The notes under the pieces: generated by a model
Database searches by the model: none
Seen by the model: the letters and a program-made list of their open reading frames with translations, nothing else
What the model was told of the DNA's origin: nothing
NCBI GenBank assembly: GCA_913056235.1
Contig: CAJXMW010000001.1
Location: 1,178,001 to 1,242,000 of the forward strand
Origin: an uncultured Fodinibius sp.
GTDB taxonomy: Bacteria > Bacteroidota > Rhodothermia > Balneolales > Balneolaceae
Direction of reading: 5' to 3'
Length of the DNA: 64,000 bases
Part shown: piece by piece, positions 3,223-51,090 of the stretch
Layout of the letters: each line of letters begins with the position of its first letter
Numbering within the stretch: position 1 is the stretch's first letter
Made by a program: the position numbers and the translations under genes

Positions 3223-3388
3223 GTATTCGGGATGCACTATAAAGTGCCAGTGAAGATTACGTTTTAAAAATCACCGGTCGTTGATGCTCTTCTTAAAAGT
3301 TAGTTTAAAGATAACGCGGATACATTAAACTACTTTGATCTGTTTAAAACAATATGAATACAGGACTTAAAAAAGGAATCAAAAAAAA

Positions 3389-3416
3389 TTTAAGTCGGCC
3401 TGTGGGGCTCCGATAA
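3389..3416 (+). promoter_or_regulatory. Sigma-28 (FliA)-like promoter of flagellin 1
   Basis: TTTAAG (3389-3394) and CCGATAA (3410-3416) are separated by 15 bp, close to the flagellar consensus TAAA-N15/16-GCCGATAA. The same element with the same spacing stands before each of the three flagellin genes, at almost the same distance from the start codon. Confidence 0.7.
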
Positions 3417-3471
3417 CCTTAATGCAAGCAGGAGGTAACAAATTTTTTACTAACAAAAACAGAGGAGCCTT

Positions 3472-4452
3472 ATGGCAAGTTTTGGAGATTTAAACAGAGT
3501 AAACACAAACATACAGTCCCTGGATTCGCAGCTGTCGCTGAACCAGGTAAACAAACAGATGGCCGAGAACCAGCTAAAGATGTCGACCGGTAAGCGGATT
3601 AACCGCGCCGAAGATGATTCAGCCGGCTTTTCAATTGCCACGAAGTTGCGCAGCCGCGTCGGCGGGCTGAACCAAGCCATGCAGAACGTCGGAGATGCCA
3701 AGTCGGTCTTGGATATTGCCGAGTCGAGCTTTGGTACGGTCATGGATAACCTGGTCGAGATGAAAGGATTGGCCACTCAGGCGGCCAACGATACTCTTGG
3801 CGATGATGAGCGTGGGTTTATTGGTGATCAAATTAAGGCCTTGGGCAATGATATCAATAAGATTGCCGATCAAACAGTGTATCAAGATTATGAACTGTTA
3901 AATGGTGATGATTCGACAGGAACTTTATCGGGTTCCTTGGATCTAACATTCCAGGTTGGAGAGCGAGAGTCGGATACGATTGAAGCACAATTAAATGCCG
4001 TTAATGTTGGGGAATTGTTCTCTGATGGATCTACGACTCAATTAGGGAATTCATCTGGAGATGGTGCAGTTGCTGACGGTTCTGCAATTGAGGCAACGGC
4101 TGCTGGTACAGCAGGAGCCGGTGGAGGTTCCCTTTCTTTTGAAACAGGAAGTGGAACTGCAGCAAACTCTGCAGATTATCGTTCTTTTATTAATACCGTC
4201 GACAGTGCGATTACGACGATGTCAGAAAATGTAAACGACATTGGTATTACCCAATCGTCACTCTCCGTACGTGAGCAGACGCTTTCGGAGTCGATTAGTG
4301 CGAATGAATCAGCGAAGTCTCGTATCATGGATACCGACTTTGCCAAAGCACAGAGTGAATCCGTGAGGTTGCAGATTTTGCAACAGACAGCGACATCCTC
4401 GTTGGCGCAGGCCAACAACGGACCGCAGTCCGTCCTTGGATTTATTGGCTAA
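3472..4452 (+). CDS. Flagellin, paralogue 1
   Basis: A 326-residue flagellar filament subunit, exported by the flagellar type III apparatus. It has the conserved N-terminal D0/D1 region (residues 1-145, 'NRVNTNIQSLDSQL', 'MSTGKRINRAEDDSAGF') and the C-terminal D1/D0 region (last ~85 residues, ending 'QSVLGFIG'). The middle ~95 residues are Gly/Ala/Ser/Thr-rich and differ from the other two copies. The start is preceded by an AGAGGAG ribosome binding site. Length is short, as in flagellins with a minimal D2/D3. A sigma-28-like promoter lies ~55 bp upstream and a hairpin terminator follows. No other flagellar gene is in the window. Confidence 0.95.
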   Translation: MASFGDLNRVNTNIQSLDSQLSLNQVNKQMAENQLKMSTGKRINRAEDDSAGFSIATKLRSRVGGLNQAMQNVGDAKSVLDIAESSFGTVMDNLVEMKGLATQAANDTLGDDERGFIGDQIKALGNDINKIADQTVYQDYELLNGDDSTGTLSGSLDLTFQVGERESDTIEAQLNAVNVGELFSDGSTTQLGNSSGDGAVADGSAIEATAAGTAGAGGGSLSFETGSGTAANSADYRSFINTVDSAITTMSENVNDIGITQSSLSVREQTLSESISANESAKSRIMDTDFAKAQSESVRLQILQQTATSSLAQANNGPQSVLGFIG

Positions 4453-4495
4453 TAGCAGCCGAGATATTATGGCCAAAAGCCAGAGATCATATACT

Positions 4496-4535
4496 AAGCC
4501 ATGCTACCTACCCGGGTAGTGTGGCTTTGTTATTT
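4496..4535 (+). terminator. Terminator after flagellin 1
   Basis: AAGCCA...CTACC pairs with GGTAG...TGGCTT around a short loop and runs into TTTGTTATTT. It differs in sequence from the terminators of flagellins 2 and 3. Confidence 0.6.
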
Positions 4536-5115
4536 AAAGAAAGGAATTGACGAAGGTGAGTTGGACATTACGGGTGGTTTCGGAGTAGGTTATTAACAGC
4601 AGTCACTGAGAGTTTTGGCTTCCAGTAAAGCTTGACATTGCAAGTGGAGTAAAACGAAACATGTCCGATAATTCTTAAAGCGAGTTACTAATCTCTGTGG
4701 AGTACCTCATTACATGATATAAGGCTATTTTGCACGGGGTTGTTATTTGTTGCAAGCTTTTCCTTGTAAGATCATTTCTTTGTTAGAGGATGATGTATCA
4801 TAAAAAATATTCACATCCAGTGAGAATTCGATTCCTCGATCAAATAAAATTTCTTCTTTTGGGATGTTGCCTAAATAATATTTTCACCAAGTAGTAAGAG
4901 ATTTCTCTTTTTTAAAAAGAACTATTCTATTAATAATAAAATTGCGAAACAATAATGCTTATGTCGTAATAAGCGTATTAATCTAGCAGAATTTTTTTAG
5001 GGACGCTCATTAGATTTTATCCGAGTATTAAGGGGAGTTTTCGGTTTCAATACGCATTATTTTTAAGACCCGTTTTCACCGAAAAACCACGGGTAATAAG
5101 GAAAGAAAATTAATA
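4536..5115. other. Gene-free spacer between flagellins 1 and 2
   Basis: About 580 bp, AT-rich, with no reading frame that looks like protein on either strand. It is much longer than the ~320-bp spacer between flagellins 2 and 3. Nothing identifiable was seen apart from the promoter that begins just after it. Confidence 0.5.
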
Positions 5116-5143
5116 TTTAAGTCGGCCTATGGGGGTCCGATAA
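5116..5143 (+). promoter_or_regulatory. Sigma-28-like promoter of flagellin 2
   Basis: TTTAAG at 5116-5121 and CCGATAA at 5137-5143 with 15 bp between. The whole block from here to the start codon is nearly identical to the leader of flagellin 1. Confidence 0.7.
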
Positions 5144-5198
5144 CCTTAATGCAAGCAGGAGGTAACAAATTTTTTACTAACAAAAACAGAGGAGCCTT

Positions 5199-6158
5199 AT
5201 GGCAAGTTTTGGAGATTTAAACAGAGTAAACACAAACATACAGTCCCTGGATTCGCAGCTGTCGCTGAACCAGGTAAACAAACAGATGGCCGAGAACCAG
5301 CTAAAGATGTCGACCGGTAAGCGGATTAACCGCGCCGAAGATGATTCAGCCGGCTTTTCGATTGCCACGAAGTTGCGCAGCCGCGTCGGCGGGCTGAACC
5401 AAGCCATGCAGAACGTCGGAGATGCCAAGTCGGTCTTGGATATTGCCGAGTCGAGCTTTGGTACGGTCATGGATAACCTGGTCGAGATGAAAGGATTGGC
5501 CACTCAGGCGGCCAACGATACGCTTGGCGATGATGAGCGTGGGTTTATCGGTGATCAGCTTAAGGCCCTGGGCGATGACATCAATAAAATCGCCGATCAA
5601 ACAGTATATCAAGATTATGAACTGTTAAATGGCGATAGCTCTGGGAATACAGGGACGCTTTCGCTTACTTTCCAGGTTGGAGAGCGAAAGTCGGATACGA
5701 TTGAAGCAGATCTCAATGCTGTAAATGTAGGTGAACTATTTGCTAGTGGGGGTGATGCCAATCTTGGAGCCGGTGCAACGGCTGGTGGAGCTAGTGCTGG
5801 TGGTGCTGCTATTGATGCAACAGCTGCAACTGCTGGTGGACAAGGTACGCTTAATTTTGCCACGGACGCCACTTCTGCTGATTACCGATCACTTATTGGC
5901 AAAGTGGACAGTGCAATTACCACTATGTCAGAAAATGTAAACGATATTGGTATTACCCAATCGTCGCTCTCCGTACGTGAGCAGACGCTTTCGGAGTCGA
6001 TAAGTGCAAATGAATCAGCGAAGTCTCGTATCATGGATACCGACTTTGCGAAGGCACAGAGTGAATCCGTGAGGTTGCAGATTCTGCAGCAGACGGCGAC
6101 ATCCTCGTTGGCGCAGGCCAACAACGGACCGCAGTCCGTTCTTGGATTTATTGGCTAA
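5199..6158 (+). CDS. Flagellin, paralogue 2
   Basis: A 319-residue flagellin. Residues 1-145 and the last ~85 residues are virtually identical to paralogue 1 at protein and near-identical at DNA level, while the middle is a different, very Ala/Gly-rich segment (around residues 180-230). Upstream promoter, spacer and ribosome binding site are copied with the gene, so the duplication unit includes the regulatory region. It probably assembles into the same filament as the other two copies; whether they are co-expressed cannot be seen. A strong terminator follows. Confidence 0.95.
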   Translation: MASFGDLNRVNTNIQSLDSQLSLNQVNKQMAENQLKMSTGKRINRAEDDSAGFSIATKLRSRVGGLNQAMQNVGDAKSVLDIAESSFGTVMDNLVEMKGLATQAANDTLGDDERGFIGDQLKALGDDINKIADQTVYQDYELLNGDSSGNTGTLSLTFQVGERKSDTIEADLNAVNVGELFASGGDANLGAGATAGGASAGGAAIDATAATAGGQGTLNFATDATSADYRSLIGKVDSAITTMSENVNDIGITQSSLSVREQTLSESISANESAKSRIMDTDFAKAQSESVRLQILQQTATSSLAQANNGPQSVLGFIG

Positions 6159-6188
6159 TAGCCAACAACCCAATACAACCATATATTT

Positions 6189-6228
6189 TAAAAGCGATAC
6201 CACGATCGGTGGTATCGCTTTTTTATTT
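6189..6228 (+). terminator. Terminator after flagellin 2
   Basis: AAAAGCGATACCAC pairs with GTGGTATCGCTTTT around a short GATCG loop and runs into a T-rich tract. The same element recurs after flagellin 3. Confidence 0.85.
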
Positions 6229-6475
6229 TAGTAAGGATAAAGAAATGAGATTGATTAAAATAGATAACAATAGATAAAATAATATCGGAAGATCATATCC
6301 AGGAAAAAATGCCTATATCCTTTGCATCAATATACATCAAAAGTTTTATGATAATTTCTGGAGCTATAGAGTGATGATGGCCTTTTAAAGAAATGATTTT
6401 CTATATGTGATAAAGAATGTCATATAGGTAGGGAGAACTTCCTACATTCTTAAAAAAAGAATATAAAAATTAATA

Positions 6476-6503
6476 TTTAAGTCGGCCTGTGGGGCTCCGA
6501 TAA
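6476..6503 (+). promoter_or_regulatory. Sigma-28-like promoter of flagellin 3
   Basis: TTTAAG at 6476-6481 and CCGATAA at 6497-6503, with the same 15-bp spacing as in the other two copies. The downstream leader has diverged a little (GTAGTGTAAGC instead of TTAATGCAAGC). Confidence 0.7.
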
Positions 6504-6558
6504 CCGTAGTGTAAGCAGGAAATAACTTATTTACTACGAACGAAAACAGAGGAGCCTT

Positions 6559-7509
6559 ATGGCAAGTTTTGGAGATTTAAACAGAGTAAACACAAACATA
6601 CAGTCCCTGGACTCACAGCTTTCGCTGAACCAGGTAAACAAACAGATGGCCGAGAACCAGCTGAAGATGTCGACCGGTAAGCGGATCAACCGCGCCGAAG
6701 ATGACTCGGCCGGATTTTCAATTGCCACGAAGTTGCGCAGCCGCGTCGGCGGGCTGAACCAAGCCATGCAGAACGTCGGAGATGCCAAGTCGGTCTTGGA
6801 TATTGCCGAGTCGAGCTTTGGTACGGTCATGGATAACCTGGTCGAGATGAAAGGATTGGCCACTCAGGCGGCCAACGATACGCTTGGCGATGATGAGCGT
6901 GGGTTTATTGGTGATCAGCTTAAAGCCCTGGGCGATGACATCAATAAAATCGCCGACCAAACAGTATATCAAGATTATGAACTGTTGAACGGTGATGATT
7001 CAACGGGTACGATGTCAGGAACGCTTTCGCTTACATTCCAAGTTGGTGAGCGGGAATCGGATACTATTACCGCTGATCTGAATGCCGTTAATGTCGGAGA
7101 ATTATTTGCTTCAGGTACGGCGGCTGGTGGAACGGTAGAATTAGGAGCAACGGCTGGAGCTATTCAGGCTCAGGCTTCAGATACGGATGATGCCGGTGGA
7201 TTGACCTTTGCCTCTACGGCTAATTCTGAGGATTATCGAGCATTTATTTCAGAGGTGGACAGTGCAATTACCACCATGTCAGAAAATGTAAACGATATTG
7301 GTATTACCCAATCGTCGCTCTCCGTACGTGAGCAGACGCTTTCGGAGTCGATTAGTGCGAATGAATCAGCGAAGTCTCGTATCATGGATACCGACTTTGC
7401 GAAGGCACAGAGTGAATCCGTGAGGTTGCAGATTCTGCAGCAGACAGCGACATCCTCGTTGGCGCAGGCCAACAACGGACCGCAGTCAGTTCTTGGATTT
7501 ATTGGGTAA
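6559..7509 (+). CDS. Flagellin, paralogue 3
   Basis: A 316-residue flagellin with the same conserved termini as paralogues 1 and 2 and a third, distinct central segment (around residues 150-235, Thr/Ala/Gly-rich with more acidic residues). The DNA of the conserved ends shows more synonymous changes than between copies 1 and 2, so this copy looks slightly older. The AGAGGAG ribosome binding site is retained. It ends in 'SVLGFIG' like the others and is followed by the same terminator as paralogue 2. Confidence 0.95.
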   Translation: MASFGDLNRVNTNIQSLDSQLSLNQVNKQMAENQLKMSTGKRINRAEDDSAGFSIATKLRSRVGGLNQAMQNVGDAKSVLDIAESSFGTVMDNLVEMKGLATQAANDTLGDDERGFIGDQLKALGDDINKIADQTVYQDYELLNGDDSTGTMSGTLSLTFQVGERESDTITADLNAVNVGELFASGTAAGGTVELGATAGAIQAQASDTDDAGGLTFASTANSEDYRAFISEVDSAITTMSENVNDIGITQSSLSVREQTLSESISANESAKSRIMDTDFAKAQSESVRLQILQQTATSSLAQANNGPQSVLGFIG

Positions 7510-13692: not shown

Positions 13693-13834
13693 AAGTACGC
13701 CTGAAGGATTCGCCCCCGCCGACCTCCCTAATCTGTATGAGATATTGCTGTGCTTGAAATGACCCGCGATTTTAGGATTTCATTTAGTACTTTTTGTAGT
13801 ACCGAAGGAGAATATTGGAAAAAGTTTTCCCAAT
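13693..13834 (-). repeat. tRNA-3'-half repeat, copy 1 (degenerate)
   Basis: On the minus strand this ends in a degenerate T-arm and acceptor strand (CAGGCGTAC), preceded by a segment also found in copies at 50941 and 57961: forward GATATTGCTGTGC-TGAAATG, then ..ATTTTAGGA-TTTCATTTAGTAC, TTTTTGTAGTACCG and a short hairpin TTGGAAAAAGTTTTCCCAA. Here the T-loop has lost the canonical TTCGA context (GGGGGCGAATCC), so it is the most decayed copy. It lies about 100 bp before the first propeller gene. Confidence 0.6.
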
Positions 13835-15242: not shown

Positions 15243-18200
15243 GTGCTGCTAAAACGCCCTATTACGGCATTCATGTTGATTTTGGCGACGCTCATTTTCG
15301 GGACGATCGCCCTGACCGAGCTCTCGGTCAACCTGTTGCCAGAGGTCGATTCGCCCACCCTGCTGGTGCGTACCGACTGGAGCGGGGCTGCTCCGCGCGA
15401 AGTCGAGCAGCGCATTAACGAGCCGATGGAGGCGATGCTCAGCACCGTGCAGGGACTCGAAAGTATCCACGGCTTTGCGCGTCAAGGACAAAGTATCATC
15501 TCGCTACGGTTTAAGTGGGGCCAGAATATGGATCTGTCCTTTCTCAACGTCCGCGAAAAGATCGACCAAATTCGTTTTCAACTTCCCGAGCAGGCCGACC
15601 GTCCCCAGCTGGTTCAAAATACCGCCTCCGACGAGCCTATTGCTGTGCTCGGCATTACTAGTGCCAACGATCCCAATCCTGATTTTCGGACGCGCCTCAA
15701 CCTCAAGCGATGGTCCGAGCAGGTGCTCTCTCGGCGCCTCGAGCAGGCTGAAGGCATTGCTCAAACCGTGCTGGTCGGTGAAGTACAGCCTGAGGTCAAG
15801 ATCCGATATCGTCCCGATGCGCTAAACCGCTACAGCGTCTCGCTTAGCGAGGTAGAGAATTTGGTCTCCAGTGCTAACTTGTTTACTTCCACCGGTGAAC
15901 TGCGCGACGGCTGGTATCGATACTCCCTCAAAATTCAGAGTCGCATCCAGTCAATTGATGATGTAAAAGAGGTGTCGCTTAAAACGCTAGGCACTGGACG
16001 CGTGCTTACACTTAGCGATGTGGCCGAGGTGCAGCTCGGCGAAGCCGATCCTACCTCATTCTCCCTGGTCGATGGTAAGGAGGTCCTTAGCGTGCTGGTT
16101 AAAAAGGAGTACGGCGCCAACACTGTTGAGGCCTATGACACGATAGGTCCGCTGCTTGATCAGCTACGCGCCCAGAATGGGAACATTGGCATTACCGTGC
16201 TACAAGAAAATGCCAGCTTCATCCGAAACGCCATCAACAACCTGCTGCAGACCCTGCTTTACGGCGCCCTGCTGGCGTTCATTATCCTCTTCCTGTTTTT
16301 GGACAACTGGCGCACGCCCTTCACGATCGGCGTTGCCATCCCCGTCAGCATTTTTCTGACGTTCTTTGTGATGTTTGTATCGGATATCCAGCTCAATATC
16401 GTCTCGCTCAGCGGGCTCACCCTCGGTATTGGCCTGCTGCTGGACAATGCCATTATTGTGCTGGAGAATATCAACCGCCACCGTTCAGAGAGCACAAACA
16501 TATTTGAGGCAGCGGATTTGGGTACCCGCGAAATCAGTCTGGCCGTGACCGCATCTACACTTACAACCATCTCGGTATTTTTGCCCCTTGTGTTTTTAGG
16601 GGGATTCGAGGGTGCCTTCTTCAAAGACCAGGCTTGGACTCTCTCCATCAGCCTGTTGGCCTCATTGGGGGTGGCCCTGTTGATCCTTCCGGTGTTAGTT
16701 ACACAGGTGCAAAAGCAGGGAGGGGGATCATCCCTTCTGGGATTCAACCGCTTTTTCGACTGGGTGCGCAATCGCTATGAAGATAGCCTCCAATGGGCAC
16801 TCTGCCATAAAGGACCATTTGTAGGCGGGATGGCCGTGCTTTTTGCTGTGGCGACGTTTTTATTTCTGGGCGTTCATAAGAATGTGCTACCCGAGACCAA
16901 GCCCGAGCAAGTGCGTTATCAGGTGCGCTTGCCCGGAAATACTGCTCTTCACGCAACACGTCAGGCCGCTGAAAGCTTGGTGCGACGACTCCGCGATGTC
17001 AAAGCCGACAATCGATCCATACGGGTATTAGGTGGTTATACCGACTTGACCAATATTTCTAACCTTTCTGATGAAGGACTCAACAAATTTACCATCAGCA
17101 TTCCGGTGGACGGATACGCGCAGGCCGACAGCGTGGAAAAAGTCGTCTCACAGTATTTGCAAGATCAGCCGGGTTGGGGAAGCGAGAAACTGGCCGCCCG
17201 GAATGCCCTGAACGTGCTGCCGTCAGCCAACCAGCCGCCCGTACTGTTTCGCCTGGTGGATAAGAACCGCTCCCAGAGCGAGCAGCTGTCGGGTCGCCTT
17301 CAGAAGCAACTGCGTCAGGCGGGCCTCGAAATCTCGCTGAGCAAGCAATACGAGCAGCAGCTGACGACCTATCAGCTTAAGTTCAAGACTGAGAAGATGT
17401 TGCAGTTGGGCATCAGCGAGCAAGAAGTGATTCGCTACCTGGAATCGCTGACCCGTGGCAGTTGGATTACCGATTGGAATCGCCAGGATGAAAACGTGCC
17501 TGTTCGACTGGTAGGCTACGACCGCCGAATTTTCGAGCCCGAAAATATTACGCTGAATATGAACAACTTGAACGTGCCGCTGACCAAGGTGGCCGAAATA
17601 AAGCAAAGTTCCGAGCCCGAGCAGCTCGAGCGCGTCAACCAGACGCCGGTGCTCAGCTACCGGGCCGATATCAGCTTTACCGACTGGTGGTGGCATGGGG
17701 CGCAGATCGAGCAGACGCTCAACGACTTTGCCCGCAGCACTGGCACCGAAGTCAAAACCGGTGGGGCGGTGCTTAGCATTGCATCGCTACTGTCGGACAT
17801 GGGATTGCTGCTGCTCATCAGCGTGGTGATTATTTATATCATCCTGTCGGTGCAGTTCGAAAGTCTGCGCCACCCGCTTATTATCCTGGTGGCCGTGCCG
17901 TTTGCCTGGATAGGTTCGGTAATCATTTTGTGGGCTACCGGTATTAGCCTAAATGCGCTGTCATTTATGGGCATTCTGATCTTGACCGGTATTGCCGTTA
18001 ACGACTCCATCCTGAAGGTCGATTTTATGCGTCGCTACCTGGCTGACACCGGCAACCTGCATCAGGCGATTACGCAGGCCGGATTGCACCGCTTTCGTCC
18101 CGTGGTAATGACCAGCCTGACTACGATCTTTGGGCTCATCCCGATGTTGCTGCCGATTGGAGACGGGTACGCCTTCCGGCAGTCGCTGGCCGTGGCGCTG

Positions 18201-18290
18201 ATGGGCGGGATGGTGACCAGCACGCTGCTGACGCTCTACCTGGTGCCAATTATTTTTCAGTGGACGGAAAGACTGCGAATGGAAAGCTAG
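15243..18290 (+). CDS. RND efflux permease 1 (HAE1/AcrB-like)
   Basis: A 1015-residue inner-membrane proton/drug antiporter of the resistance-nodulation-division family. It has the usual two halves: TM1 near the N-terminus ('KRPITAFMLILATLIFG'), a large periplasmic loop, TM2-6 with 'LGIGLLLDNAIIVLENI' holding the proton-relay Asp, a second loop, and TM8-12 with 'LTGIAVNDSILKVDF'. The only usable start is GTG at 15243 with a weak ribosome binding site; the frame is open upstream to 15198, giving 'WRIFTFKFKDV', and the usual N-terminal amphipathic helix is missing or replaced. It appears GC-richer than its propeller neighbours. Its adaptor lies 3 kb downstream, separated by two propeller genes. 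Confidence 0.9.
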   Translation: MLLKRPITAFMLILATLIFGTIALTELSVNLLPEVDSPTLLVRTDWSGAAPREVEQRINEPMEAMLSTVQGLESIHGFARQGQSIISLRFKWGQNMDLSFLNVREKIDQIRFQLPEQADRPQLVQNTASDEPIAVLGITSANDPNPDFRTRLNLKRWSEQVLSRRLEQAEGIAQTVLVGEVQPEVKIRYRPDALNRYSVSLSEVENLVSSANLFTSTGELRDGWYRYSLKIQSRIQSIDDVKEVSLKTLGTGRVLTLSDVAEVQLGEADPTSFSLVDGKEVLSVLVKKEYGANTVEAYDTIGPLLDQLRAQNGNIGITVLQENASFIRNAINNLLQTLLYGALLAFIILFLFLDNWRTPFTIGVAIPVSIFLTFFVMFVSDIQLNIVSLSGLTLGIGLLLDNAIIVLENINRHRSESTNIFEAADLGTREISLAVTASTLTTISVFLPLVFLGGFEGAFFKDQAWTLSISLLASLGVALLILPVLVTQVQKQGGGSSLLGFNRFFDWVRNRYEDSLQWALCHKGPFVGGMAVLFAVATFLFLGVHKNVLPETKPEQVRYQVRLPGNTALHATRQAAESLVRRLRDVKADNRSIRVLGGYTDLTNISNLSDEGLNKFTISIPVDGYAQADSVEKVVSQYLQDQPGWGSEKLAARNALNVLPSANQPPVLFRLVDKNRSQSEQLSGRLQKQLRQAGLEISLSKQYEQQLTTYQLKFKTEKMLQLGISEQEVIRYLESLTRGSWITDWNRQDENVPVRLVGYDRRIFEPENITLNMNNLNVPLTKVAEIKQSSEPEQLERVNQTPVLSYRADISFTDWWWHGAQIEQTLNDFARSTGTEVKTGGAVLSIASLLSDMGLLLLISVVIIYIILSVQFESLRHPLIILVAVPFAWIGSVIILWATGISLNALSFMGILILTGIAVNDSILKVDFMRRYLADTGNLHQAITQAGLHRFRPVVMTSLTTIFGLIPMLLPIGDGYAFRQSLAVALMGGMVTSTLLTLYLVPIIFQWTERLRMES

Positions 18291-18304
18291 AGAAATAGCA
18301 AACG

Positions 18305-18445
18305 ATCTCATCCGAGTTCTGAGTGTGAAGTCGGATGGGTGAAATGAGTAGCAAGGTGAACGGCAAAGCCAGCGGCCCGATAGGGAGAAGCGTCAAGATT
18401 GTACTGATACACTCATCAGACGACAAGTCCAGTCGTCAGATGAAA
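18305..18445 (+). repeat. Double-hairpin intergenic repeat, copy 1
   Basis: First helix 18309-18337: CATCCGAGTTC pairs with GAAGTCGGATG. Second helix 18412-18443: TCATCAGACGAC pairs with GTCGTCAGATGA. About 75 bp lie between them. It stands between the stop of permease 1 and the next propeller start. The same arrangement recurs at 19608 and 21000. Confidence 0.7.
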
Positions 18446-18476
18446 AGTGCTGGCTTCATCAAAAGTAACAAAAGAT

Positions 18477-19607
18477 ATGCTAAGACAACTTGCAGTTACT
18501 TTTCTAGCGCTTGCAATGGTCGTTGCTTGCAATAAATCAGACGAGCCTTATCAAGGAAAGTATCTGGATGTATCTTTCGAAGAGAGGTTAATTTTTGGCA
18601 CCAAAGATTCCCTTTCCAAGGCCAGTTTTTATGCAGTTAGCAATGTACAAGTAGGACCTAATGGAAAAATTTATGTAGTAGCAGCGGCCCAAAAAAGAAT
18701 TAAGGTATTTTCGCGAGAGGGCGATTTTCTGTATCAATTTGGTGGAAGCGGTCGCGGTCCCGGAGAATTTATTGGAATAGAAGGGAGTGCACTTGAAGAT
18801 AACTCATTTTATGTCTGGGATCAGAATTTGCAGCGTATTCAGACGTTTAACATTTCTGGAGAATTGACTGCCACGCAGACTCTGGAAGGAGTTGCAGCTC
18901 CTATGAAATTTTATTTTTTAGGCGGACAACCATTATTGCTATACAGTCATTTCAACGGATCGGTGAAGGAGAGCACGCTGGCGCATATTTACAACAATAA
19001 CTTTTCAGATATGGAAAAGAGCTTCATTCCAATAAAAAGCGTTGACAAGGGGATCGAGAAAGTGAATCTGCACTTGATGTCTGGGACGGGAGATGTGCAC
19101 GTGCTTGGTAAGCGGGAGTTTTATTATATACCCAAGATCTTTGGCGAAAACATATATAAGTACATTAAAACTGATAGTAATACTTGGAAACAAAGTGTAT
19201 ATAAAGTGATGAATCGTCAATCCCCTTTTACCTTCACGGATGAGAGAACGGTGAGAAAGCCGGATGTAACCATATCAAGTGCACTCAGGAATGAAAAGGT
19301 AACATTTATCAAGCACAATCAATCCAGAGGATTATTTGAGTATAGAGATCTGCTGTTTCACTTTTCGCTTTGTGATATTGAAGACAAGCGTGTTTTTGGG
19401 GCGGCTATCTATGACAAACAATTTAACCCAGTTGGTTACGTGCCTATCGAGTCGATTCCTATTACTAACAAAGGGAATAACTTTCTGAATTGGTATGTCA
19501 AAGATGTAGATGAGCTGGGCAATTTTTATATCATGGAGCGTTACGACGGCGGTACTCGCATTCGGGTATTACACTTGGATTATCAAGAACTTAAACCCTA
19601 TTTATGA
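18477..19607 (+). CDS. Six-bladed beta-propeller lipoprotein (type B)
   Basis: A 376-residue lipoprotein. I chose the ATG at 18477 because it gives 'MLRQLAVTFLALAMVVAC', matching the N-terminus of the next gene ('MTRRLAVTLIALVMIGC'). The motif 'GRGPGEF' is present. It lacks the WWVL signature of type A and instead has 'FHFSLCDIEDKRVFGAAIYD' and 'IESIPITNKG' near the C-terminus, shared with the genes at 19784 and, more distantly, 29487. The stop is followed by hairpin repeat copy 2. Role unknown; presumably on the outer membrane. Confidence 0.85.
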   Translation: MLRQLAVTFLALAMVVACNKSDEPYQGKYLDVSFEERLIFGTKDSLSKASFYAVSNVQVGPNGKIYVVAAAQKRIKVFSREGDFLYQFGGSGRGPGEFIGIEGSALEDNSFYVWDQNLQRIQTFNISGELTATQTLEGVAAPMKFYFLGGQPLLLYSHFNGSVKESTLAHIYNNNFSDMEKSFIPIKSVDKGIEKVNLHLMSGTGDVHVLGKREFYYIPKIFGENIYKYIKTDSNTWKQSVYKVMNRQSPFTFTDERTVRKPDVTISSALRNEKVTFIKHNQSRGLFEYRDLLFHFSLCDIEDKRVFGAAIYDKQFNPVGYVPIESIPITNKGNNFLNWYVKDVDELGNFYIMERYDGGTRIRVLHLDYQELKPYL

Positions 19608-19752
19608 ATTGTCTTTTCATCCGAGTTCTGGGGTTGAAGTCGGATGAATGGAAAAGCGAGAAATTGTAGCATCTAATGGACGGTAAACCCAGCCACCCGA
19701 TGGGTGTCTGCTAGAGTACTCATCAGACGACAAATCCAATCGTTAGATGAGT
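19608..19752 (+). repeat. Double-hairpin intergenic repeat, copy 2
   Basis: First helix 19618-19646 (CATCCGAGTTC / TTGAAGTCGGATG); second helix 19719-19751 (CTCATCAGACGA / ATCGTTAGATGAG). Substitutions in the second helix keep most pairing through G-T pairs compared with copies 1 and 3. It ends about 30 bp before the next start codon. Confidence 0.7.
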
Positions 19753-19783
19753 GGCACTTGTATAATCAAAGGTAACAAAAGGT

Positions 19784-20929
19784 ATGACAAGACGACTTGC
19801 AGTTACTCTTATAGCACTTGTAATGATAGGTTGTAATAAATCGAAGGAGCCCTACCACGGAAAATCTATAGATCTGTCATTCGAAGAAAAGCGAACCTTT
19901 GGTCAGCCTGACTCGCTTTCGGAGTCAACGATCCATTATGCAAGAGAGGCCCGGTTGGGACCGAACGGTAACATTTATGTTGCAGATGCTGGAGTTTCGA
20001 AAATTAAGGTGTACAGCCCATCTGGCAAATTTGTTAACAGTTTTGGTAAAAGAGGCCGAGGGCCGGGAGAGTTTACCGGGATCAGGGGATTTGCAGTAAC
20101 TGACAGCACGGTCTTGGCCTGGGACCAAGATCTTCAGCGAATGACGGTATTTGGACTGGACGGGAAATTGCGTGACATGCACAATTTCGAAGGTGTTGTA
20201 TCCCCTATGCGGATCTATCCAATGAAGAACTCTTACTTAATTTTTCATGCCGAAAACCGTAACCCCAATAAGATTAAAAAAACACGGTTGGCACATATTT
20301 ATCCGTCAGAATCTACCAAGCAGATCGCAGATTTTTTAACCATAAATGATGTTGAAGAAAATATTGAATATATATCAAGGATGTTACTGGTAGGTTACGG
20401 AAATATCCTTATTCAGAATAACCAACAGTTCGTATTTGTGCCTTATATCTATAACGGCAATTTATACCAGTATTCAAAAACAGCAGAAGGATGGCAGCAA
20501 ACCCGCGTATTCGAAGGATTAAACCAGCAAACACCGTATTCATTAGTAGAAGAAGGTGATAAACGAAAAGCTGACGCGAGTATATCAGCTGTGGATTTAG
20601 CTAAAGACAGGGAGTTTGTGATCCATAACCTGACCAAGGGATTGTTCAAATATAATGGCTACATTTTTCATTTTGTCTTGAGCGATATTAGCAATAGTCG
20701 GGTATTCGGAGTTGAGATTTATGATAAAAATGTAAGTCCCGTTGGTTTTGCTCCTATTAAATCTATTCCCATCACAGATAAAGAGGGTAATTTCATTGAT
20801 TGGACGGTGGAGGCTGTAGATAAAAAAGGGAATTTCTACTTTTTGCAGGAAACTGATAAAGGAAGAAAAATTCGGGTTTTAAGCCTAACTGAATCGGATT
20901 GGGAGAAATTGGGAGAGTTAAGTCCATAA
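19784..20929 (+). CDS. Six-bladed beta-propeller lipoprotein (type B)
   Basis: A 381-residue lipoprotein with lipobox 'VMIGC' and Asn-Lys-Ser following, like its upstream neighbour. It carries 'LGPNGNIYVADAGVSKIKVY', 'GRGPGEF' and the C-terminal block 'FHFVLSDISNSRVFGVEIYD'. Similarity along the whole length plus matching flanking repeats shows a tandem duplication with 18477. Start preceded by 'GGTAACAAAAGGT', a weak ribosome binding site present before both copies. Function not known. Confidence 0.87.
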   Translation: MTRRLAVTLIALVMIGCNKSKEPYHGKSIDLSFEEKRTFGQPDSLSESTIHYAREARLGPNGNIYVADAGVSKIKVYSPSGKFVNSFGKRGRGPGEFTGIRGFAVTDSTVLAWDQDLQRMTVFGLDGKLRDMHNFEGVVSPMRIYPMKNSYLIFHAENRNPNKIKKTRLAHIYPSESTKQIADFLTINDVEENIEYISRMLLVGYGNILIQNNQQFVFVPYIYNGNLYQYSKTAEGWQQTRVFEGLNQQTPYSLVEEGDKRKADASISAVDLAKDREFVIHNLTKGLFKYNGYIFHFVLSDISNSRVFGVEIYDKNVSPVGFAPIKSIPITDKEGNFIDWTVEAVDKKGNFYFLQETDKGRKIRVLSLTESDWEKLGELSP

Positions 20930-20952
20930 AATATTTTTAGACCTAAGACCCG

Positions 20953-20998
20953 AATTCGGGTGTGGCACTTGAATTATCAAGAACTCAAACCCTATTTG
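20953..20998 (+). pseudogene. 3' remnant of a third type-B propeller
   Basis: The sequence encodes IRVWHLNYQELKPYL, nearly the same as the last residues of the propeller ending at 19607 (IRVLHLDYQELKPYL); its stop TGA has become CGA. It is followed by hairpin repeat copy 3. It shows that a third copy existed here and was mostly deleted. Confidence 0.75.
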
Positions 20999-20999
20999 C

Positions 21000-21145
21000 G
21001 AATTGTCTTTTCATCCGAGTTCTGGGGTTGAAGTCGGATGAATGAAAAAGTGAGAAATTGTAGCACCTATTGGTCGTAAACCTGGCCGCCCAAAGGGGTT
21101 ATGCCGGCGTACTCATCAGACGACAAGCCCAGTCGTCAGGTGAGA
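21000..21145 (+). repeat. Double-hairpin intergenic repeat, copy 3
   Basis: First helix 21012-21040 (CATCCGAGTTC / GAAGTCGGATG), second helix 21111-21144 (ACTCATCAGACGAC / GTCGTCAGGTGAG). It lies ~145 bp before the RND adaptor gene, after the remnant of a propeller gene. Confidence 0.7.
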
Positions 21146-21289
21146 AAATGAAACCTGACAGCATCCTGAGTGCCTGGGATCTGTCAGCGTTTTAGCCCAT
21201 TTGCCCAAGGTCTTGCATCTCAATACATTGCCATAACTTCTTATTTATAATTGAGAGTCATTTGAAAGAGTATAACTGAATAGATCATC

Positions 21290-22414
21290 ATGCAGAAATT
21301 TATGATGCGACTTTGCCGCCCGGTGCTGCTTGTGTTAATGCTTACGGTAATTGTGGGAGCGTGTCAATCATCAGAAAAAGAAGATAACAATCCACTTTCC
21401 GAAGAGGAGCAAGAGTCAGCCAAAGTGCGTCCCGAAGTGACTTTTGCCATTGCTGACAGCCAGCCGATCTACCAGTATATCGAAAGCCAGGGCGTGGTCG
21501 AGGCGAACCAGTCGGTAATCCTGAAGCCGAAGATCAGCGGCTATGTGGAGCGGTCGTTTATTACCGGCGGTAAGCGCGTGCAGAAAGGTGATACGCTGCT
21601 GAACTTCGATCGCCGCGAATACACCATGGCCGTGGAAGAAGCTAAGAATGCCTATGATGAGGCTCTCGAAAAATATAAGATTGAGATGGGCATGCGTGCC
21701 ACCCGCGATACCGCCGATACCAATGGTGAAGAGCAGAAAGATCCCGGCGCGCGGCTGGTCCGCATTACGACGGGCTTGGCCCAGGCCGAGGTGGACTTGA
21801 AACGAGCTAAACTGAATTTGTCTTATACATTACTGGTAGCACCCTTTTCAGGGGTACTGTATACCAAAGAACGCATCACATCTGGAGCCTATGTCAGCGC
21901 TGGCAGTCAGGTGGGGCGACTGGTGGATGACCGTAAAGTGCGTATTCGGTTTGACGTGCTGGAATCAGAACTCAGCAAGATCGATGCCGGCATGAAGGTG
22001 CGGCTTACGGCTCCCGGCGGAGAGCAGATGCAGGGCACGGTGCAGGCAGTATCGCCGGTGGTGAATACCGAGACCAAGACGGGGACGGTCATCGTGGAGG
22101 CTGACAACCCCAACGGCATTTTAACACCGGGGATGACTGTAGAGGGACGTATCCAGGTTCAAAAGCAGGAGGGGAAGGTGCGTATCCCGCGGTCGGCGAT
22201 CCTCTCGCGCGACGGGGGACGAACGCTGCTGTTTAAATTGCATCCCGAAAATAATGAAGTACAGTGGGTATATGTAGAACCGACGGCCCAGAATAGCCAG
22301 TGGGCAATTGTGAATCACAAAGAAATTACCCCGGGCGATACCATTGCCGTGGATCATCACTTTTCGTTGAGCCACCTGCAGATCGTGGATCCGGTGCTGA
22401 AAGTGCAGGAGTAG
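21290..22414 (+). CDS. RND efflux periplasmic adaptor (MFP) lipoprotein
   Basis: A 374-residue membrane-fusion protein joining an RND permease to an outer-membrane channel. N-terminal lipobox 'VIVGAC' (Cys ~25), an acidic linker, a biotinyl-lipoyl-like half ('EANQSVILKPKISGYVERSF'), a helical hairpin (~residues 115-180), the second lipoyl half ('LSYTLLVAPFSGVLYTKER'), and beta-barrel and membrane-proximal domains ('TVQAVSPVVNTETKTGTVIV'). It looks GC-rich like the two permeases at 15243 and 44461, with which it probably once formed one operon. No outer-membrane channel gene is in the window. Confidence 0.9.
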   Translation: MQKFMMRLCRPVLLVLMLTVIVGACQSSEKEDNNPLSEEEQESAKVRPEVTFAIADSQPIYQYIESQGVVEANQSVILKPKISGYVERSFITGGKRVQKGDTLLNFDRREYTMAVEEAKNAYDEALEKYKIEMGMRATRDTADTNGEEQKDPGARLVRITTGLAQAEVDLKRAKLNLSYTLLVAPFSGVLYTKERITSGAYVSAGSQVGRLVDDRKVRIRFDVLESELSKIDAGMKVRLTAPGGEQMQGTVQAVSPVVNTETKTGTVIVEADNPNGILTPGMTVEGRIQVQKQEGKVRIPRSAILSRDGGRTLLFKLHPENNEVQWVYVEPTAQNSQWAIVNHKEITPGDTIAVDHHFSLSHLQIVDPVLKVQE

Positions 22415-33612: not shown

Positions 33613-33825
33613 GTGTCATTTGCTAAAACATTATCTCGAGATGAAATGAAAAATATCACAGCAGGATGGGTGGACGAATATGGATGTACCTATACTGGCG
33701 GAACAGCATCATGTCGAAGTTATTACGACTGCCTAACTTTTGTATGTACGAGTAAGGCACCTTCGGAAGGCTGGGATTCCTCAACGTGTGTAGAACAAGT
33801 ACAATCCTTGCGATTAAAATGTTAA
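33613..33825 (+). CDS. Cys-rich leader peptide 1 (double-glycine type)
   Basis: A 70-residue precursor starting at GTG with the shared leader MSFAKTLSRDEMKNITAG. The leader resembles double-glycine/C39 leaders ('LSRDEMKNI.AG'), with Ala-Gly as the likely cleavage site after residue 18. The core of ~52 residues has six Cys and several Tyr, Ser and Gly, and no hydrophobic segment. The gene lies 23 bp before a propeller lipoprotein. No modification enzyme is nearby, so disulfides are the likeliest processing. Toxin, signal or ligand roles are all possible. Confidence 0.8.
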   Translation: MSFAKTLSRDEMKNITAGWVDEYGCTYTGGTASCRSYYDCLTFVCTSKAPSEGWDSSTCVEQVQSLRLKC

Positions 33826-40180: not shown

Positions 40181-40736
40181 ATGAATTCATTTCGAAGTTT
40201 ATCGCCAGCACGACCAGATGGACTGTGGTCCTACCTGTTTGCGAATGATTGCTAAACATCACGGCCGTAATTATACCTTGGAAACTCTTCGCAGGAAAAG
40301 CGGGATCAACCGTGAAGGTGTTTCGCTGCTGGGTATGAGTGAAGCAGCTGAAGATATTGGCTTTCGCACGGTGGGTGCAAAACTAACTTGGGAACAGCTC
40401 AAGAACGAAGCAACGTTGCCCTGCGTGGTTTGTTGGGGGCAAGAACATTTTGCGGTTGTTTATAAAATAAAGGAAGGACAAAGAGTATTAGTGCGTTTTA
40501 GCGGTTATCCTTCCAAAGAGTTTGGATCTGTAACAGGTCGTGTAAGTTACTTATCAGAGTTTCCAGTAAAGGATAGTGTTTTTGTAGCAAAGGTAAAATT
40601 CCCGAATGGATTTATAACTAACTACGATCAAAAGATAACACCAACCAATGGGATGAGAGGACAAGCGAAAATTATTACACAGGATATGCGATTTGTCGAG
40701 CGTATTTACAATAATTTGACCAAAGAATTGCGATAA
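40181..40736 (+). pseudogene. Relic of C39-peptidase ABC exporter joined to HlyD tail
   Basis: ATG 40181 begins MNSFRS, then a one-base loss near 40200 shifts into the frame YRQHDQMDCGPTCLRM, the start of a C39 peptidase domain with catalytic Cys. It continues to its 'EHFAVVYKI' histidine motif (~residue 80 of the open frame from 40218). Directly after, 'EGQRVLVRFSGYPSKEFG' and 'GMRGQAKIITQDMRFVERIY' are the C-terminal beta-barrel/tail of an HlyD-type adaptor. The ABC membrane and ATPase domains and most of HlyD are missing: one deletion fused the first gene's start to the next gene's end in frame. Evidence that a double-glycine peptide exporter stood here. Confidence 0.8.
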
Positions 40737-50936: not shown

Positions 50937-50940
50937 TATA

Positions 50941-51090
50941 AAGTACGCCTGAGAGGATTCGAACCCCTAACCTCCTGATCCGTAATCAATGCGAGATATT
51001 GCTGTGCGTGAAATGGGCAGTGATTATGGAATTTTATGTAGTACTTTTTGTAGTACCGAGGGGGAAGTGGGGGAAAAGGTTTCCCGATTT
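50941..51090 (-). repeat. tRNA-3'-half repeat, copy 2
   Basis: Minus strand: a seven-base anticodon-loop-like TTACGGA (anticodon ACG, tentatively Arg), then a T-arm AGGGG-TTCGAAT-CCTCT that pairs fully, acceptor strand CAGGCGT and A. No D-arm or 5' acceptor strand precedes it. Instead there is the segment shared with the other copies (forward GATATTGCTGTGCGTGAAAT, ATTTTATGTAGTAC, TTTTTGTAGTACCG, then hairpin GGGGGAAAAGGTTTCCC). This looks like the att end left by an element that integrated into a tRNA gene. Confidence 0.65.

Follow-up and report, generated by a model that had tools for sequence, protein, structure and literature searches.

A dispersed family of REP-type palindrome doublets in an uncultured Fodinibius, most likely moved by a group 5-like RAYT and locally duplicated at an RND pump locus

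Background

The group 5 RAYTs (subclass 2.6 of TnpA_REP) are among the least described of the REP transposases. They occur mainly in Bacteroidetes, carry the motif YIH[QN]NP, and are flanked by atypical palindromes that lack GT[AG]G and recur at other places of the genome (Quentin et al. 2018, PMC6006769). These palindromes, called 'atypical', were found by eye. CGTC repeats have also been reported in Bacteroidetes (PMC3733652). A literature search returned no paper naming both repetitive extragenic palindromes (REPs) and Balneola. Here we analyze a three-copy intergenic repeat in the genome of an uncultured Fodinibius sp.; "the window" denotes the whole stretch of 64,000 nucleotides in which it was noticed. 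The copies are, with high confidence, REP doublets (REPIN/BIME-type) of a family most likely moved by a subclass 2.6/group 5 RAYT, the window doublet having been duplicated locally. The repeat is a further example of a known bacterial repeat class rather than a new regulatory RNA.

Three inverted palindrome pairs in the window

The first-pass annotation, made from the sequence of the window, had described three copies of a repeat with two strong hairpins, preceding two propeller genes and an RND adaptor gene. All three copies were recovered, each between co-directional genes and ahead of propeller gene 1, propeller gene 2 and the adaptor gene, respectively. Every copy has the same architecture: a 29-nt imperfect palindrome (hairpin 1), a spacer of 73-76 nt, and a second 29-nt palindrome (hairpin 2). 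The hairpins are indeed strong, with RNA folding z values of -3.2, -3.9 and -3.6 for copies 1, 2 and 3 that beat every shuffle; folded as single-stranded DNA, copy 1 has a z of -3.2, again better than all shuffles. One fixed stem mismatch is present in each hairpin of the window copies, G.G in hairpin 1 and A.A in hairpin 2. The suggestion that substitutions in copy 2 mostly preserve pairing through G-T held only in part, since one stem substitution in hairpin 2 is kept by G-T but the other breaks the loop-closing pair.

The earlier reading overlooked that hairpin 2 is homologous to the reverse complement of hairpin 1, and also missed the genome-wide dispersal of the two. Each copy is therefore made of two members of one palindrome family in inverted orientation. 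We call hairpin 1, read on the opposite strand, type A (CATCCGACTTCAACCCCAGAACTCGGATG) and hairpin 2 type B (CATCAGACGACAAGTCCAGTCGTCAGATG). The two types have identical ends and a similar loop, but differ in the inner stem and in the position of the single mismatch. The elements are listed here with their scores against R1, a covariance model made from 30 palindrome copies; the type A and type B intervals are the cores of hairpins 1 and 2.

18305..18446, no strand assigned: REP doublet copy 1 (A on the minus strand, 76 nt spacer, B on the plus strand); R1 47.8 + 57.2 bits, and alignment
18309..18337, minus strand: REP type A of copy 1, with the RND pump stop codon 18 nt before it; R1 match
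18414..18442, plus strand: REP type B of copy 1; R1 match
19614..19753, no strand assigned: REP doublet copy 2, in the gap between propeller genes 1 and 2; R1 57.5 + 48.7 bits
19618..19646, minus strand: REP type A of copy 2, with the propeller 1 stop codon 10 nt before it; R1 match
19721..19749, plus strand: REP type B of copy 2, with one G-T substitution and one closing pair broken; R1 match
21008..21146, no strand assigned: REP doublet copy 3, 5' of the RND adaptor gene; R1 57.5 + 53.2 bits
21012..21040, minus strand: REP type A of copy 3; R1 match
21114..21142, plus strand: REP type B of copy 3; R1 match

A dispersed family and its copying unit

When copy 1 was compared with its own genome by blastn, 23 matches were found on seven contigs, and a search with R1 found 78 palindromes at E about 0.01 or better. 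About 40 sites scattered over this genome carry such palindrome pairs, the window repeat among them. Eleven other species of the genus were searched with R1; five had no match at E <= 0.01 and the remaining six had 1 to 29 matches each. Since matches are many in the own genome and absent from five congeners, chance or base composition does not explain them. The genome G002 has 7-8 R1 matches and only weak or distant RAYT homologues. In another genus of the same family, G030 has 26 R1 matches, many of them 35 nt long, and RAYT homologues that are only distant; these matches possibly represent a related REP family.

Neighboring copies are mainly arranged as A on the minus strand followed by B on the plus strand, 48-52 nt from start to start, and among pairs within 70 nt the minus/plus order outnumbers plus/minus by 16 to 3. 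Outside the window the doublet is usually about 87 bp long with a spacer of 19-23 nt. In an all-versus-all comparison of 47 clusters, each with 500 nt of flank, similarity between unrelated sites (the C5 array excepted) nearly always ended at the limits of the doublet or no more than about a dozen nt from them. The clearest pair of sites, 4.5 kb apart, matches over 99 nt at 88% identity, from -10 to 88 of a unit numbered 1 to 87. The copying unit is thus a discrete doublet of about 87 bp, and the same geometry (about 50-53 nt start to start) was found again in G008 and in the congeners G003 and G004. Spacers differ at most sites, which indicates that recent transposition is rare or old.

Conserved features of the palindromes

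The first-pass annotation had proposed a covariance model, with recent duplication as the reading should covariation be absent. Across 113 copies from the own genome and congeners, covariation is strong: both sides change in 12 of 13 pairs. Two-sided changes occupy 237 cells, compared with 82 when shuffled (none of 500 shuffles reached the observed value); slid structures gave 55 at most. This alignment was fitted to the covariance model, which inflates pairing, and the first, ungapped alignment gave covariation of the same sign (42 versus 15). The loop, CAAnnCCAG (AAnnCCA for the 7 nt proper), varies little across the family. A palindrome recognized as folded DNA would covary equally, so covariation is no argument for RNA; it is significant, yet here reflects a DNA palindrome family. 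Covarying hairpins in an intergenic repeat thus need not imply RNA function.

A GT[AG]G guide at the foot of the stem was found in none of 74 copies on the element strand and in one of 74 on the opposite strand. The family is therefore not a canonical GTAG REP, and the recognition rule of E. coli is not transferable to it.

A resident RAYT flanked by the family

Four genes of the genome match PF01797 (Y1 transposase) above or near the cut-off. One of them, on contig C5 (G000:C5:199547-200134), encodes a protein of 195 aa with NHFH and YIHQNP motifs. Upstream of the gene lies a palindrome of type A; downstream there is an A followed by a B, the nearer of them about 8 nt past the stop codon. The protein scores below the cut-offs of both NCBIfam NF047646 (51.1 of 80 bits) and Pfam (22.1 of 23 bits); its motifs and the published description fit an assignment to subclass 2.6/group 5. 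No R1-like palindromes were found beside the C1, C2 and C4 Y1_Tnp genes.

Homologues of the C5 RAYT in the congeners G003 (45% identity) and G004 (44%) are likewise bracketed by R1 palindromes, which differ in the inner stem and share the loop. In G020, which belongs to another genus, the homologue (47% identity) has a diverged palindrome just downstream, and on that side of the gene only. The HUH and YIHQNP motifs (NHFH, YIHQNP) are nearly invariant among 24 RAYT homologues. For 23 homologues, mainly from Bacteroidota, a hairpin above the 95th percentile of shuffles was present downstream in 57% and upstream in 70%, the latter figure being slightly favored because a 200 nt upstream stretch was set against a 150 nt shuffled control. 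RAYT and REP co-occur, with Fisher P = 0.001 over 59 genomes and 0.01 over 12 congeners, in a test that ignores kinship and uses thresholds picked after the tables had been seen.

The structure of L094, a homologue from a Balneolaceae MAG that is 50% identical to the C5 RAYT, was modeled with a pLDDT of 95. The top PDB match of this model was 4er8, the REP transposase of E. coli in complex with its REP hairpin (E 5.2e-6). As judged from this model of a homologue rather than of the resident protein, the predicted Y1 transposase fold is clear.

Other features were seen near the Y1 genes. A Y-family DNA polymerase-like ORF (L024 31-1185; read from sequence) lies about 300 nt upstream of the C5 RAYT gene. 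The C2 RAYT (G000:C2:289260-289915; L025) has the 27-nt palindrome GATGGCATCACTCTAAGTGATGCCATC in identical form on either side, and no further copies of it were found in the genome at up to 3 mismatches; this gene and its palindromes are an IS-like unit. The C4 RAYT (G000:C4:55.4-56.2 kb; L182) has flanking palindromes of its own (GATGGAGTCCACCT...), with no relation to the window family.

Genomic position and possible roles

For 74 copies, positions could be determined on retrieved DNA stretches, with ORFs called by a simple greedy longest-ORF scheme. None of the 74 overlaps an ORF, in DNA that is 82% coding; with copies collapsed to 42 independent loci, the probability of such placement is about 1e-32. 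The copies lie between convergent (45), co-directional (25) or divergent (4) gene pairs, and they often begin no more than 15 nt from a stop codon.

This proximity to stop codons, with the preference for convergent gene ends, is what would be expected of intrinsic terminators or mRNA 3'-end stabilizers under selection. We consider that origin highly improbable, since a terminator scan was negative for all three window copies, whose stems have no trailing T-run, and five congeners lack the element altogether. Termination or stabilization may instead be a secondary effect.

A small structured RNA or regulatory leader had been suggested in the first-pass annotation, and a riboswitch-like leader of the propeller and adaptor genes would accord with hairpins that are stable as RNA, covary and, in the window, precede start codons. 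Most copies, though, sit between convergent genes. A 5' leader has no place there, so that a riboswitch-like role is excluded for the family taken as a whole. No Rfam family matched the window at the gathering score, sigma-70-like promoters were not in excess, and the occurrence of the family follows that of a transposase gene. The suggestion accordingly lacks support, a leader being very improbable even for the window copies.

We give hardly any credence to a MITE of a DDE transposon, or to a CGTC-tagged REP with another mobilizer. The element is short, non-autonomous and dispersed, as either would be, and CGTC repeats are on record in Bacteroidetes (PMC3733652). However, none of the 74 copies has, on the element strand, an unpaired CGTC or GTRG tag beyond the foot of the stem; CATC/CGTC in the family copies lies within the paired stem, and the flanked gene encodes a Y1/HUH protein. 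An integron attC reading was also dropped because the Y1 link accounts for the data.

Local duplication at the pump-propeller-adaptor locus

The genes and gene remnant associated with the window doublets are as follows.

18480..19607, plus strand: propeller gene 1 (PF17170/DUF5128), in the duplicated unit; 42% aa identity to propeller 2
19784..20929, plus strand: propeller gene 2 (PF17170/DUF5128), in the duplicated unit; 42% aa identity to propeller 1
20948..21001, plus strand: remnant resembling the 3' end of propeller gene 1, carried with REP copy 3; matches 19554-19607

Copies 2 and 3 are 84% identical over 198 nt (19554-19751 with 20948-21144), and 89% over 129 nt; the match includes 54 nt from the 3' end of propeller gene 1. 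Copies 1 and 2 are 76% identical over 173 nt, reaching into the starts of the propeller genes. The matching blocks, 19554-19751/20948-21144 and 18411-18583/19718-19887, end in or cross the elements, so that an earlier conjecture, the boundary of a duplicated unit, applies at this site. Among regular A/B pairs the window copies alone have a spacer of 73-76 nt; in two other pairs the start-to-start distance is 175 and 218 nt. Because the matches run past the element into gene DNA, one long-spacer element was multiplied with gene segments, and from these alignments we take the window copies to be one doublet multiplied by segmental duplication or recombination. Recent tandem duplication alone, with no wider family, can practically be set aside: the extension of the matches into flanking gene DNA accords with it, but the palindromes also occur in other species and, in this genome, at about 40 further loci whose flanks are unrelated. 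Duplication accounts for the three window copies and not for the element itself.

Conservation is higher in the elements and at their borders than in the bodies of the genes, the two propeller proteins being just 42% identical. This could reflect either gene conversion or replacement of the gene between elements. G008 has one palindrome about 20 nt past the stop codon of the orthologous pump gene, oriented as in the window; none was found at that stop codon in G004 and G007. The RND pump/adaptor interval (window 15243-22414, and L170-L173) holds differing sets of 6-bladed propeller (DUF5128) genes in several congeners, while the adaptor (63-73%) and, where found, the pump (81-83%) are well conserved. 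This comparison points to fast gene turnover in the interval.

Other repeats in the window

Between 33523 and 40881 a repeated leader, 'MSFAKTLSRDEMKNITAG', starts short ORFs at 33613, 35250 and 36955, each followed by a propeller gene; a C39-peptidase-like ORF lies at 40218 in the same region. The short ORFs look like bacteriocin-type precursors, with a match to NF047798 that is below the cut-off. Another intergenic repeat, of about 110 nt with a TGTAGTACTTTTTGTAGTACC-like stretch, occurs at 13725, 50940-50979 and 57959. A repetitive gene region at 3385-7506 contains 300-nt stretches in three tandem copies with 89-99% identity.

Proposed mode of dissemination

In the explanation that we favor, each doublet consists of two inverted imperfect palindromes that would form hairpins in single-stranded DNA. 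The resident C5 RAYT (TnpA_REP, HUH/Y1) would recognize, cut and disseminate the palindrome family, presumably recognizing it as single-stranded DNA through the 7-nt loop and the stem mismatch, and moving the doublet perhaps at replication forks. In the window, a long-spacer doublet was then multiplied along with a propeller gene. If the mRNA of the pump-propeller-adaptor cluster is affected at all, this may be a by-product.

A more far-reaching proposal, which we regard as doubtful, is that the family represents a distinct REP type in which the AAnnCCA loop and single stem mismatch, not a GTAG guide, carry group 5 RAYT recognition, that the doublet is preferentially a heterodimer of the two stem types, and that the elements are recombination seams driving propeller turnover at the pump locus. 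Now that the family is available as an alignment and a covariance model, with its conserved loop and the cognate RAYTs of three congeners, the recognition rule of group 5 RAYTs can be tested directly.

Comparison with known systems

The family most resembles the palindromes of subclass 2.6 (PMC6006769) in the YIH[QN]NP motif, flanking palindromes lacking GT[AG]G, and dispersed genome copies. The HUH motif differs, being NHFH here and NH[LIV]H in the published logo. Features resolved here are the stem types A and B, the 7-nt AAnnCCA loop, usually one mismatch, and inverted doublets of about 87 bp.

Like the REPINs of Pseudomonas fluorescens (Bertels and Rainey 2011, PMC3116915), the elements are extragenic, RAYT-linked and copied as an inverted doublet. 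Unlike REPINs, they have two stem types per doublet, variable spacers and no GTAG; they occupy about 40 loci rather than hundreds, and their RAYT is group 5-like rather than of the Pseudomonas type.

With the BIMEs of E. coli, composed of Y and Z REPs and associated with TnpA_REP (4er8; PMC8266576), the family shares the doublet arrangement, the alternating orientation of two REP types, a stem mismatch and a REP-flanked RAYT gene, and the predicted fold of the homologue L094 is like that of the E. coli TnpA_REP (4er8). The E. coli REPs (PMC8266576) have a GTAG guide on the 5' side and a bulge of two mismatches, whereas here there is no guide and usually one mismatch. TIRtrons/TIRYT (PMC3733652) are resembled instead by the C2 RAYT of the same genome, with its two identical flanking palindromes and no other copies within 3 mismatches; the window family differs from them in being multi-copy and arranged in doublets.
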